The notes under the pieces: model-generated
The model's input: only the letters and a program-made list of their open reading frames with translations
Databases searched by the model: none
Told to the model about the DNA's origin: nothing
Part shown: in pieces, positions 18,691 to 23,922 of the stretch
Layout of the letters: the number at the start of each line of letters is the position of its first letter
Numbering within the stretch: the first letter of the stretch is position 1
Assembly: GCA_023623175.1 (NCBI GenBank)
Contig: JAMNXU010000021.1
Location: forward strand, 132,912-196,911
Source: Bacillota bacterium
GTDB taxonomy: Bacteria > Bacillota > Clostridia > Acetivibrionales > JAMNXU01
Direction of reading: 5' to 3'
Length of the DNA: 64,000 bases
Program-made: the position numbers and the translations under genes

Positions 18691-18964
18691 TTGGCCGTGC
18701 ACCTACCATCGACCTTCCGCCCATAAGCGTAACCCTTGCAGTTAACTCTAACCAGGCACCCTCACGGCACACGGAAATATCTGCTTACCGCTGCTTTCTT
18801 CCGAACCTGACGGGGTTCACAGGTTTCCGTTGCGTAAGACCCGGTTTTCATTGCCACTTACGAGGGGCAGACCTTACAGGGAAAAGCCTGCGGTAGGAAT
18901 TCAACCCTGCTATAGCGGATTGCAGGAACCAGGGCACCGCTACCTCCCCGCCTAGCACGGCCAA
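18691..18964 (-). ncRNA. ffs: Signal recognition particle RNA, large Firmicute type
   Basis: About 274 nt. The 5' region GCCGTGCTAGGCGGGGAGGT matches the Bacillus scRNA Alu domain almost base for base. The helix-8 tip GTCAGGTTCGGAAGAAAGCA binds Ffh. The termini TTGGCCGTGC and GCACGGCCAA are perfectly complementary. It is the scaffold for co-translational targeting of membrane and secreted proteins. A position upstream of dnaX is conserved in Firmicutes. One base in the helix-8 loop region (AGAAAG for AGGAAG) departs from the most common form. Confidence 0.97.
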
Positions 18965-19399: not shown

Positions 19400-20293
19400 T
19401 TACTTAATAAAATGCAGAATTATTCCCGATACTCCGATATATATGGCCGCGATCCCGATGGCAGCGCCGATGTTGTTCTGCTCGTACACTTCGTTCCATA
19501 AATCTATTTTCAGGGCGGCCGTAAAAACGCGCCTGAACAGGAAGTTTAAAAAACCGTACAAAAACATGCACGCCAGGAAGACCATAGCCTGCTCGTTCAG
19601 GTGGAACTCGGTCTGAACCGACACAATGCCGCCAAGCAAGGATTCCATTCCAAAAACAAAACCAAGGAAACAGATGCCTTCCGCAATATTGTTGTCAATA
19701 AAAAGCTCCCTGACAAGCGAAGTCTTTCTTCTTAAAAGCAAAACATAAAAGACAAGACTCAGCAGAGAAAAAATAAATATGTTCAAAACCACGAGGATTG
19801 ATTCCATTATGTATTGCGCCTGCACGTCCATAAACCGGACCATGTTCGCGAAAATAACCGAAAGCGCGGTGGAAAACAGTGCTGCGGCAACATTGTGCTG
19901 CTTGAAAATCTCATCATTCAGAATCACGATCTCATTTCCCGTGGTGTCCGTCAGGAACCGCACAATAAATCCTGATGCCATCCTGAGAAACGTAAATACC
20001 GCCACGTAACCTATAACATAAGACAGGCAAACAAGCAGGTCTACAAAAATATTGCTGCTGGCCGAACCCTGGATTGCGCTGGCCGCAAGAAAAAGCGTCG
20101 GACCTACGAAAGCTCCTATAAACTCAACCCAGGCGGCAACGTTGTCTTTTTCAAAAAGGGCTTCCCTGAGATTTATCCTGCCAAGGACCAGGTAACTGTA
20201 AAGGAGCCACCCCATGGTAAAGCTAACTGCAATAATGGCAAAACTGAATAAAAAATTGTTGGCAAAAAACATCAAAAAGTCACTGAGTCCCAC
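19400..20293 (-). CDS. DUF350-type membrane protein with fourfold internal repeat
   Basis: A 297-residue protein of about eight hydrophobic segments. A motif of the form [E/D]-x-[F/Y]-x(3)-N-[V/I]-A recurs four times: 'LFEKDNVAAWVEF' near 46, 'IFKQHNVAAALFS' near 129, 'LFIDNNIAEGICF' near 198 and 'VYEQNNIGAAIGI' near 269. Each precedes a membrane helix. This is the DUF350 (YjfL) signature in duplicate, so the protein equals two fused family members. DUF350 proteins are inner-membrane proteins of unknown function. GTG start after GGGGGG. It begins 2 nt after the upstream 188-residue gene and is the last gene of the operon. Confidence 0.75.
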   Translation of the reverse strand: MGLSDFLMFFANNFLFSFAIIAVSFTMGWLLYSYLVLGRINLREALFEKDNVAAWVEFIGAFVGPTLFLAASAIQGSASSNIFVDLLVCLSYVIGYVAVFTFLRMASGFIVRFLTDTTGNEIVILNDEIFKQHNVAAALFSTALSVIFANMVRFMDVQAQYIMESILVVLNIFIFSLLSLVFYVLLLRRKTSLVRELFIDNNIAEGICFLGFVFGMESLLGGIVSVQTEFHLNEQAMVFLACMFLYGFLNFLFRRVFTAALKIDLWNEVYEQNNIGAAIGIAAIYIGVSGIILHFIK

Positions 20294-20295
20294 TT

Positions 20296-20862
20296 TTAAC
20301 CCCCCTGGTAAAATTTATAGAAAACATCGTCAACGGATTCTCCCCTGAACAGGCGGAACATGCCGGTATCCTGCGTAAGCTCGATATTGAGGTATTCCGT
20401 TTCTCCGTCGGCCATTCGCTCGAAAATCCAGATTTTTGCGCCTGTTTCCCTCTCCAGGCGGCCTGTTTCAACATCGTAAACCCTTATGGCGGCCCTGATT
20501 CCGTCGGCGCGTATTTCGCCGCGATACTCACGGCCTTCCGGGTCTACTGCATATCCCTGTTCCAGGGTTTTTAGAAAATCTTCATGGAACGGAAATGCAT
20601 AAATCAATTCAAAAAGATAAGCCTGGAGCTCTTCATTTTCATCTTCGATGACCTCGAAAACATACTCCGACGTTTTATCGCGGTCGAATATTACATACCG
20701 GGCAATTATGCGTTCCCGCGTCTCTATCTCCACAATCTTGCCAAACCTGTAAATCCCCGTGTCCCTGAGTTTTCCGCCGCTGAATTCAATAGTGGAGCTT
20801 CTTGTTATTTTAAGGGGGTTATAGATATCCTCAATGACCTTTTTACCGGATTTAAAAAACAT
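20296..20862 (-). CDS. Soluble acidic protein of unknown function in the DUF350 operon
   Basis: A 188-residue protein with no signal peptide or membrane span. It is rich in Glu and Arg and in predicted strands ('YVIFDRDKTSEYVFEVIEDE', 'GETEYLNIELTQDTGMFRLF'). I do not recognise a family. Soluble partners of DUF350 proteins (YjfK/DUF2491, DUF4178) have similar beta-rich character, but I see no motif proving membership. ATG start after GAGGAG. Spacing of 2 nt to the DUF350 gene and 31 nt from the exported-protein gene indicates one transcript and probably one complex. Confidence 0.7.
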   Translation of the reverse strand: MFFKSGKKVIEDIYNPLKITRSSTIEFSGGKLRDTGIYRFGKIVEIETRERIIARYVIFDRDKTSEYVFEVIEDENEELQAYLFELIYAFPFHEDFLKTLEQGYAVDPEGREYRGEIRADGIRAAIRVYDVETGRLERETGAKIWIFERMADGETEYLNIELTQDTGMFRLFRGESVDDVFYKFYQGG

Positions 20863-20893
20863 ATCCCCAACTCCTCCGCCTCTTAACGGCCTC

Positions 20894-21736
20894 TTAGTAT
20901 ATCCTGCTCCTGTACGGCTCTTTCGGGACGGGTGCTGAGAACATTTTCAGCATGACAAGCAGAACCGCGGATATAATAACCAGCGCAGCAACCGTTAATC
21001 CGAAATGCCTGACCGATCCCGGGTGCTTCGTTGTATAATAAACCATGTTAATATTGTCCAGCAGGTAATCCTCCGCAAACTGCAAATCCGGGTCCACATC
21101 GGGGTCGACATAGGTGGGATCCCTGGGAATGCCCTTTTGCTCCAAAGCCCTGATCCTGCTCTCAAGTTTTTCATATCCTACTTCATCAAAATGTTCCCTG
21201 AACTGGGACAGTTCATTCCAGTGATGGTACCAGAAAAGATCCGGAGCCCTCAGCAAAAACCAGAAATCCCACGGGCCGATTCGGGCTGAGCCGTAACTTA
21301 AGGCGTCTCCGTACAATTTTACATTCGCGCCTATGGTAACCGGTCTCGTTTCAAACGATGCAATCCTGTCATTCCTGGTTTTAACAGCTTCTTCGAAATT
21401 CATGCGTTCGTTCACGAAATATCTGCCGCTTCGCATCAAATCATTAACCTTTTGCTGCTGCTCGCTGAATTTCTGGTTGTAAGTTTCCCGACTGGTTTGG
21501 GAAGTTGCTTCTCTGAAGGCTTCCTGCATATACGTGTTTTTAAGTTTCTTAAGCCCAATGGAAAAAGACTGGCCGGAAAAGCCCGCAAGACTTTTGGAGA
21601 AGGATTTGCTTCCCGAAATACTTCTCCCTATTCCAAAATTGCCTCCTGTGAAAGCATTTCCCTTTGCCTCGGCATGTGCAAACCATGAGAAGACAATTAA
21701 AACTGAAATAAGCATAAAAATAAATTTCTGCCTCAC
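20894..21736 (-). CDS. Exported, C-terminally membrane-anchored protein of unknown function
   Basis: A 280-residue protein. A signal peptide (residues 1-24, ending in 'WFAHAEA') is followed by a Gly/Ser/Phe-rich stretch ('FTGGNFGIGRSISGSKSFSK'), a Gln/Glu/Lys-rich helical region and an aromatic core ('WDFWFLLRAPDLFWYHHWNE'). A single membrane helix (about 247-266) with a short basic tail ends it. Most of the chain would sit outside the cell. GTG start 3 nt after the lipid-kinase stop. No homologue recognised. Context suggests an envelope function with the DUF350 protein. Confidence 0.7.
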   Translation of the reverse strand: MRQKFIFMLISVLIVFSWFAHAEAKGNAFTGGNFGIGRSISGSKSFSKSLAGFSGQSFSIGLKKLKNTYMQEAFREATSQTSRETYNQKFSEQQQKVNDLMRSGRYFVNERMNFEEAVKTRNDRIASFETRPVTIGANVKLYGDALSYGSARIGPWDFWFLLRAPDLFWYHHWNELSQFREHFDEVGYEKLESRIRALEQKGIPRDPTYVDPDVDPDLQFAEDYLLDNINMVYYTTKHPGSVRHFGLTVAALVIISAVLLVMLKMFSAPVPKEPYRSRIY

Positions 21737-21739
21737 GTC

Positions 21740-22669
21740 TTATCTCTCCCTGGCAAACTGAAAAGTTTGAGGAAAAACCACTTTTATTGCGCGGGGATAA
21801 ATTTCAAATTCCGCTTTGCTGGTTCTCATCAATTCCCCGTCTATGTTCAGAGGCACTTCTTCATCGCTGCTGACGACAATTTTGCGGCAGGTGTGGAAAC
21901 TCACTCCTTCAATGCTTCCGTGACTGCCTTCCATGTACCTCGGGAACAACCTGAGTACCCTGCGCCGCGTCTGGCCTGCTACATGACAGACACTCAGCAG
22001 GCCGTCATCTATCGAAGCCCCGGGCACAGGCATCATGCCGCCGCCGTAATACCTGCCATTGGCAATGGCCGCGAGCAGCGTTGCCGATCGCATTTCACTG
22101 CCGTCCATGTCCAAAACAAGATTGTAATTTTTTAAGCCCCATACGGCTGAAATAATACCAAGAACATAGGCCATGCTTCCGCTTATGCCCGGTTTTTTCT
22201 TGAATTTCATCGTGCTCTCAACCACTCTTGCGTCAAAACCCACCGACGCAATGTTCACAAAAAACCTGCCGTTAACACGGGCAAGGTCAATGGCCCGTTC
22301 CCGGCCCTTCAGCAGCTGAAGCAGTATTTTTTCTATATAGCTCCCGCTCGGTCGCTTTTTTCCGGGATCAATGCCTATGCTTCTTACAAAGTCATTCCCG
22401 GAACCGCCGGGGACAACGGCAAGGCTTATATCGCTTCCGACCATTCCGTTAACTATTTCATTAACGGTTCCGTCGCCCCCGACGGAATATATACGGTCAA
22501 ATCCTTTCGACTGAGCCGCTTTTGCAATTTCCGTCGCATGGCCCGGAGAATTCGTTAGCTCTATAACATGGTCGACATTATTCTCTTCACAGTGTTTTTT
22601 TATAATCGGCACATATTCGCCGGTCCGGCCTTTTCCCGCAACAGGATTTACAATAAACAGGCATTTCAT
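21740..22669 (-). CDS. Diacylglycerol kinase family lipid kinase (YegS/DgkB type)
   Basis: A 309-residue cytosolic kinase of the DAGK catalytic superfamily. The nucleotide-binding 'VGGDGTVNEIVNG' (GGDGT) and 'VVPGGSGNDFVRSIG' are intact. It would phosphorylate diacylglycerol or a related lipid, recycling lipid head-group turnover products. Substrates in this family vary. ATG start after AAGGAG. It is first of the tight run leading to the exported protein, the soluble protein and the DUF350 protein. The URO-D gene upstream ends 30 nt before it and may be cotranscribed. Confidence 0.9.
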   Translation of the reverse strand: MKCLFIVNPVAGKGRTGEYVPIIKKHCEENNVDHVIELTNSPGHATEIAKAAQSKGFDRIYSVGGDGTVNEIVNGMVGSDISLAVVPGGSGNDFVRSIGIDPGKKRPSGSYIEKILLQLLKGRERAIDLARVNGRFFVNIASVGFDARVVESTMKFKKKPGISGSMAYVLGIISAVWGLKNYNLVLDMDGSEMRSATLLAAIANGRYYGGGMMPVPGASIDDGLLSVCHVAGQTRRRVLRLFPRYMEGSHGSIEGVSFHTCRKIVVSSDEEVPLNIDGELMRTSKAEFEIYPRAIKVVFPQTFQFARER

Positions 22670-22699: not shown

Positions 22700-23824
22700 T
22701 CAGGCTTTCATGCCGAACATTCTTTCCTTAAGATCCAGGTAATACAGGTAGTCCTCCGGTTTTACGTTGGGCGGGCAACGATGGTCGCAGAAAGGTATAT
22801 AACCTCCCCTGGCAACAAGGGGTTCAAGGGTCTCAAGGTATGCCTTTATTGCTTCAGGCCCTTTCGCAAGTTCCAGCTTGTCTACACCGCCCATAATGCG
22901 CAGTTCCTTGCCGTATTCATTGAGCAGCTCCGCGGGATGGGAACATCCGTTGACTTCGAAGGGGAAAAGACAGTTTATGCCGCCTTCCAGCATATATGGA
23001 AGCAGGGGCCTGACATCTCCGTCACAGTCGGTGTACCAGAGGTCAATGCCGTATTGTCTCAGTTTTTTGCTTATGCGCTTGTATCTCGGCACCACGACTT
23101 CCTTGAAAAAGTCTACCCTGACGATGGGACCGTTTTTGAAGCAAATATCCTCCCAGCCCGATGCAAAGTCAAACTTGAAATGGGGCAGAACCTGATCGAG
23201 GAAATCCTCCACGAGCTGGCAGCATGTCTCCACCATGTCCTCAACCATGTCAGGGTAATCGAAGCAGGCATAGGCGAGACCTTCAAAGGTCAGCATATCC
23301 CTGATTTTCCCTATCATGGAACCACAGCTTACGCCAAGCGGATAATCCCTGTCATCGGGATGGAGTTTTTTAAGTTTTTCAATATCGACCTTCCTTGCGG
23401 GATCATCGCGCCTGAAACGTTCTTCCTTTACCCTTTTCCAGTCGTCGGGAGTAACAACGGTTGACTTTATAAAGTGGGGTATGGTGTCATGTCCGTCCTT
23501 GGGCACTTCAGCCAGCAATCCGTCTTCGTTTATAATTATCCTGCTTGTCGGTGTTTCATCCACCACTTTTTCCTCGAAAGGCGGATTCATCCATACTTTT
23601 CCGCTTATTGTCTCAATCCTGTCAAAATTAAAAAACCTGTCGGCCTGCCTGTTATTGGTTATTCCGTTTTCGTAAAAAATAGGCCAGACCTTGAAATTCT
23701 CGTCCCAATAACCAAACTCCATATTGAAGCATCGGTCAAAGGGCTTGTAATGCATTTGGTTGTTAAATCTCTCGCGATCAGTCATGGTGCCTTTCCACTT
23801 GGGCCGAATTGGTTTGATTTCCAT
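22700..23824 (-). CDS. Uroporphyrinogen-decarboxylase-fold protein (putative methyltransferase), copy 1
   Basis: A 374-residue TIM barrel of the URO-D superfamily, which includes both HemE and corrinoid methyltransferases (MtaA, CmuA). Characteristic segments are 'TDRERFNNQMHYKPFDRCFN' at the start, 'GWEDICFKNGPIV', 'WYTDCDGDVRPLLPYMLEGG' and 'IMGGVDKLELAKG'. The HxCG zinc motif of MtaA is replaced by 'TDCDGD', and HemE's N-terminal Arg-rich site is absent, so heme synthesis is unlikely. Start chosen at ATG 23824 with GAGGAGG upstream. It shares the 'WED-x-x-F-x-NGP' and 'D-G-D' motifs with the copy at 61724. Substrate unknown. Confidence 0.82.
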   Translation of the reverse strand: MEIKPIRPKWKGTMTDRERFNNQMHYKPFDRCFNMEFGYWDENFKVWPIFYENGITNNRQADRFFNFDRIETISGKVWMNPPFEEKVVDETPTSRIIINEDGLLAEVPKDGHDTIPHFIKSTVVTPDDWKRVKEERFRRDDPARKVDIEKLKKLHPDDRDYPLGVSCGSMIGKIRDMLTFEGLAYACFDYPDMVEDMVETCCQLVEDFLDQVLPHFKFDFASGWEDICFKNGPIVRVDFFKEVVVPRYKRISKKLRQYGIDLWYTDCDGDVRPLLPYMLEGGINCLFPFEVNGCSHPAELLNEYGKELRIMGGVDKLELAKGPEAIKAYLETLEPLVARGGYIPFCDHRCPPNVKPEDYLYYLDLKERMFGMKA

Positions 23825-23922
23825 GCGATACCTCCTCGCCGGGCAGATCCTCAACCCGGAATTTACGCAAAAATTGATAAGTCCATACTTATTATTCAAT
23901 ATAAACTTAAATTTTAATTTAA

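Follow-up and report, generated by a model that had tools for sequence, protein, structure and literature searches.

DUF350 membrane proteins are widespread: of 14 well-known genomes used as controls, 4 encode them, including those of E. coli and B. subtilis, and the literature searched assigns them no role. A compact gene group in the clostridial DNA analysed here, a stretch of 64,000 nucleotides referred to as the window, raises the question of which genes belong together with DUF350 and what their products might do. An earlier reading of the letters alone (the sequence-only reading) described four genes spaced by 3, 31 and 2 nt. The coordinates of the open reading frames agree exactly, with 2 nt between D350 and P2, 31 nt between P2 and P3 and 3 nt between P3 and the kinase, and a purine-rich ribosome site lies ahead of the start codon in all four genes. 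The features are, in the direction of transcription:

22700..23824 (or to 23899), minus strand: URO-D/MtaA-like gene (PF01208, 34.6 bits)
21740..22669, minus strand: kinase of the YegS/BmrU/DgkB family (TIGR00147 above cut-off)
20894..21736, minus strand: P3, exported anchored protein of a new family (alignments, transmembrane prediction, no family match)
20296..20862, minus strand: P2, soluble acidic all-beta protein (hhalign to DUF4178, AlphaFold2 model)
19400..20293, minus strand: D350, protein with eight transmembrane helices and two tandem DUF350 (YjfL-type) domains (PF03994 twice)

The URO-D-like gene lies upstream and ends 30 nt before the kinase start. Its listed start is a TTG at 23899; since a strong ribosome site (GAGGAGGT) precedes an ATG at 23824, the gene probably extends over 22700-23824. 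It may be the first gene of the kinase-P3-P2-D350 transcript, and it was a singleton in neighbourhood clustering and is not kept beside the other genes in relatives. On the far side, a bacterial large SRP RNA gene (18695-18960, minus strand; RF01854, 218 bits) with a near-consensus promoter at 19055-19027 lies between D350 and dnaX.

Comparison with relatives singled out three of these genes. P2 and P3 were found in the identical 14 of 40 relatives of the same order and in no other (chance of the same 14: 1/C(40,14) = 4e-11, before phylogeny), and P3, P2 and D350 are adjacent in this order in all 14. The trio is also intact in four more records from clostridia, of which three belong to Ruminiclostridium. 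Because the flanking genes differ (gyrBA, recJ, dnaX-ybaB-recR and others elsewhere; dnaX, SRP RNA and URO-D genes in the window) while the trio stays in line, it behaves as a unit, and P3-P2-D350 is one inherited membrane module. This module is accessory, being absent from 26 of the 40 relatives, and is confined largely to this order, since a survey of 299 genomes spread over the phylum recovered P2 from the window's own genome only. Its culturable hosts include Ruminiclostridium and Pseudobacteroides. Distances among the three proteins, compared with one another without a control gene, correlate at 0.88-0.92, a level that joint vertical descent would give. P3 was absent from the plasmids and viral contigs searched, a result that gives no hint of carriage by a mobile element or phage.

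A profile search with P3 also recovered the same three families from two Deltaproteobacteria MAGs (L052, L053) and one Proteobacteria MAG (L054), at 15-30% identity to the proteins of the window. Here the order is D350-P3-P2, with D350 again an eight-helix DUF350 protein; in L053 three small open reading frames without an identified family separate D350 from P3. P3 was not found in 62 other genomes from the class to which L054 belongs. In L052 and L053 the trio is followed by a PspA-like gene (Pfam E 1.6e-4 and 5.5e-5 over the full length, below the curated cut-off); in one of these loci the protein encoded between the two shows a very weak resemblance to CesT/Tir (E 0.05). In addition, a GmrSD_N protein and a RiboL-PSP-HEPN protein are encoded between P2 and the PspA-like gene in L052 (9123-10710), a pair absent at the same place in the closely related L053.

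D350 matches PF03994 in two stretches (65.3 bits against a curated cut-off of 26; E 7.5e-18). Both sequence prediction and an AlphaFold2 model (pLDDT 83) give eight transmembrane helices, as the sequence-only reading had stated. The model contains eight long and four short interfacial helices, each repeat consisting of a helix, a short interfacial helix and a second helix. D350 contains [FY]-x3-N-[VI]-[AG] four times, at residues 47, 130, 198 and 270, and none of 200,000 shuffled D350 sequences contained the fourfold motif. The motif had originally been written as [E/D]-x-F/Y-x3-N-V/I-A; its four copies stand, but the first leads with A, leaving an acidic residue in only three, and the last ends in G. 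The repeat is no special trait of this protein and belongs to the DUF350 family, with two copies per Pfam domain. D350 is a tandem duplication of a four-helix DUF350 unit with two N-[VI]-A repeats, and it has four copies because the domain was duplicated. Lys/Arg counts in the loops, read by the positive-inside rule, predict that the four motif loops (residues 42-55, 125-135, 193-204 and 265-276) are cytoplasmic and both termini outside. One genome without P2 and P3 (G015) keeps a D350-like protein with 30% identity, so D350 may act alone.

P2 is soluble and acidic, as described earlier, with a pI of 4.8 and an all-beta AlphaFold2 model (pLDDT 89.8). Neither P2 nor any other protein in the window's genome exceeded the Pfam cut-off for DUF4178 (PF13785). 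However, hhalign matched P2 to DUF4178 at 94% (score 52.8, 159 columns), against at most score 24.8 and 7% for 150 column-shuffled profiles, 0.3% for a reversed profile and 0.1% for unrelated profiles. The clostridial P2s alone reached 28%; the link arises because the proteobacterial P2s bridge the two sides, with 90% to DUF4178 and 99% to clostridial P2. As the Pfam cut-off is not reached, we regard P2 as a very remote relative of DUF4178 and not a member, a homology drawn wholly from profile-profile comparison. A fold search of P2 against the PDB gave no match at E<=0.001 (the best, RnlA, with Z 5.3 over 73 residues, lies within background), and a PDB sequence search gave no credible match. 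Pfam, NCBIfam, PHROGs and PADLOC returned nothing significant for P2 and P3; OB-fold (E 0.045) and TTC3 (E 0.001) matches among the searches with these proteins fell below cut-offs and were dropped. The profile searches suggested earlier for these two proteins thus led to remote DUF4178 for P2 and to no family for P3.

P3 has a signal-peptide-like N-terminus with an invariant A24 (AEA/KG) and no lipobox Cys. A single transmembrane segment is predicted near its C-terminus (245-263), followed by a short basic tail ending SRIY, which bears out the earlier description of an exported protein with a C-terminal anchor. The protein further contains a Ser/Gly-rich linker and the conserved core WD-x-WFLxRAxDLFWYHHW; a PDB sequence search found no relative, and P3 is a new, previously undescribed exported family. 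P3-like proteins also occur alone, beside typA/bipA, in Myxococcales-type MAGs (L055:1934-2872, L056:7500-8330, L057:7530-8345) in whose genomes P2 was not found; this neighbourhood gives the P3 core domain another setting besides the trio.

Some DUF350 genes are known from larger assemblies. In E. coli, yjfI-yjfJ(PspA)-yjfK-yjfL(DUF350)-yjfM-yjfC is a multi-gene envelope-related set, which resembles the trio in placing a DUF350 membrane protein in a multi-gene set and differs in its four-helix DUF350 and in its partners (DUF2491, DUF1190, ATP-grasp). Bacillota clusters of DUF4178, PspA and four-helix DUF350/lipoprotein genes (L098-L106) place DUF4178 beside a single-domain DUF350-like membrane protein (L104-L106); unlike in the trio, this small protein has four helices and not eight, PspA is present and the exported protein is unrelated in appearance. 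Separately, DUF350-like membrane proteins of 285-290 aa stand beside partners of about 400 and 250 aa in L090, L091 and L092, an arrangement conserved in three genomes.

A further class was described by Ravi et al. 2024 (PMC11237479, group 2), whose operons combine a CesT/Tir-PspA dyad, a 7TM-fused spermine synthase, a YjfL-family 8TM DUF350 protein, a lipoprotein (Ctha_1186 domain) and a beta-rich intracellular DUF4178 protein. The relative G025 carries such a canonical operon (L093), with Spermine_synth-7TM, DUF350, exported protein, DUF4178, CesT/Tir and PspA. Both this class and the trio have an eight-helix DUF350 protein, a beta-rich cytosolic protein and an exported membrane-anchored protein side by side. 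In contrast to that class, the trio has no spermine synthase, CesT/Tir, PspA or ion channel, its exported protein carries a signal peptide and a C-terminal transmembrane segment rather than a lipid anchor, and P2 falls far below the DUF4178 cut-off. Comparison of P3 with the single lipoprotein-like protein of L093 (possibly Ctha_1186 family) gave an hhalign value of 0.5%, with no homology detected, and P3 appears not to be homologous to the lipoprotein of that operon. Likewise, BLAST of the CesT- and PspA-like proteins of L053 against their L093 counterparts gave no useful similarity.

No CesT/Tir-PspA dyad lies at the window trio; the only PspA candidate of the window's genome (G000:C1:251167-251799; L094:4575-5303) is below the Pfam cut-off and about 97 kb away, where it adjoins a 274-aa predicted protein without a family. 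A 7TM-fused spermine synthase is also absent from the window trio, a fused-length spermine-synthase gene being located elsewhere in the genome on contig C20. Since another relative, G023, has both the trio and a canonical-type locus (L147: small speD-like gene, 7TM spermine synthase, interrupted DUF350, exported protein and K-channel-like protein), the two are not simple substitutes. The DUF350 gene is apparently interrupted by stop codons in both L093 (G025:C140) and L147 (G023:C69), apparently reflecting parallel decay or assembly error. On these comparisons, the trio is best read as a variant of the Ravi-type module without PspA or spermidine synthase, comprising its membrane-cytosol-exterior core with a different exported protein.

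What such a core might do can be outlined from its parts. In our estimate there is about an even chance that the trio forms an envelope-integrity complex, with D350 as core, P2 docked inside, P3 as an outside sensor and the kinase as a helper. D350 would be the membrane core, its four repeats offering P2 a docking site at the acidic/Asn motif, which they would display towards the cytoplasm. P3, a single-pass protein in this view, would expose its large conserved domain on the outer side and keep its basic tail within, and it would pass on the condition of the wall or membrane surface to D350-P2; this complex would then stabilise or remodel the membrane as PspA-associated systems do. To this extent the envelope-stress idea of the sequence-only reading fits the PMC11237479 context and the PspA-like gene that follows the trio in L052 and L053.

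A function in transport seems rather unlikely to us, though it deserves most weight among the alternatives: D350 would be a transporter or channel, moving for example polyamines or some other small cation, P2 would serve as its cytosolic gate or regulator and P3 as an outside capture or gating subunit, and the kinase would be incidental. Eight transmembrane helices that are duplicated and internally repeated, the conserved acidic and Asn residues of the repeats, and the recurrence of DUF350 genes with polyamine genes (PMC11237479; L093, L095, L147) would suit such a role. However, prediction and model place the conserved acidic motifs at cytoplasmic loops and not mid-membrane, and the loci and proteins examined showed no recognised polyamine gene near the trio. 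For the D350 model no solved transporter or channel rose above background, the best solved fold being AmtB (Z 8.2, rmsd 4.4, 144 residues or about half of D350), a level typical of helical bundles; a PDB sequence search with D350 gave no credible match. The fold searches weigh neither for nor against a channel or transporter, and the channel proposed from the letters gained no positive evidence.

The kinase is, judged by its motifs and profile matches, a plain YegS/BmrU/DgkB-type lipid kinase, as expected from its earlier assignment to the DAG-kinase family: it contains DAGK_cat and YegS_C (Pfam E about 1e-30), scores 184.9 bits against a cut-off of 118.65 for TIGR00147, carries GGDGTVNE and PGGSGNDF and matches DgkB 2qv7 at E 4.6e-23. 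It shares whole-length homology and the GGDGT and GGSGNDF motifs with the DgkB/YegS kinases (2qv7, 2bon) and differs from them in operon context; its diacylglycerol substrate is putative. Had it been a fixed operon member, as first supposed, it would be expected beside the trio throughout, but among the 15 clostridial loci with a readable upstream flank a lipid kinase adjoins the trio in 4 and is missing in 11. Neighbourhood conservation, raised earlier as a check, thus holds for the trio, in all clostridial relatives with P2 and P3 examined and in the three proteobacterial MAGs, and not for the kinase. The adjoining kinases fall into two orthologous groups: type A stands at the window trio, type B at those of L029 and L031, and L038 has both; in the trio tree these loci occupy three separate branches. 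Genomes carry 0-2 DAGK_cat genes, and a crude chance of adjacency in at least 3 of 14, ignoring phylogeny, is about 1e-8. The kinase is a facultative neighbour, linked to the trio well above chance and not obligatory.

This recurrent adjacency of two orthologues, together with the 3-nt kinase-P3 gap in the window, would also be expected of a lipid-modification pathway in which the kinase supplies a substrate or a signal, and in which the task of the trio is to flip, bind or further modify a phosphorylated lipid or a lipid-linked wall precursor. A point against the complex favoured here is that the conserved operon could stem from a metabolic pathway instead. We hold the lipid-modification pathway somewhat less probable than transport, as the kinase neighbour is missing not only from those 11 clostridial loci but also from all three proteobacterial ones, and no catalytic motif or enzyme fold was found for P2, P3 or D350. 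Moreover, the adjacency would need no pathway if the genes once stood in the order A-B-P3-P2-D350 and were separated later, and such a history suits G023, where a type A kinase lies 11 kb upstream of the trio on the same contig. That the trio is a spore or wall assembly unit peculiar to these sporeformers, as the yabG spore protease upstream in a Ruminiclostridium-type locus (L027) and the Ser-rich exported protein might suggest, is very improbable given its presence in proteobacterial MAGs, from lineages not known to form such spores, and its absence from 26 of 40 relatives.

Under the envelope-integrity reading that we favour, the kinase would act in the same conditions as the complex, returning diacylglycerol-like lipids to the pool of anionic phospholipid precursors, as a helper and not a subunit. 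Mutations in dgkB alter the sensitivity of Lactococcus to envelope-acting agents (PMC7864038). Of the proposal that the genes work with lipid phosphorylation, the above-chance adjacency in 4 of 15 loci survives; our best guess is that lipid phosphorylation is a side branch of the module.

Among the DUF350 units examined, the trio is the smallest that is conserved, and neither PspA nor polyamine genes belong to it. It narrows the core function of DUF350 to three proteins, offers a simple genetic system, and adds the exported family P3 and a recurrent, optional lipid-kinase link. A more specific version, in which a PspA-independent membrane-integrity complex senses the envelope through P3 and its DUF350 core couples through the DUF4178-like subunit to lipid phosphorylation, is rather unlikely in our view; if true, it would represent the minimal form of DUF350 modules and provide the first testable role for DUF350.
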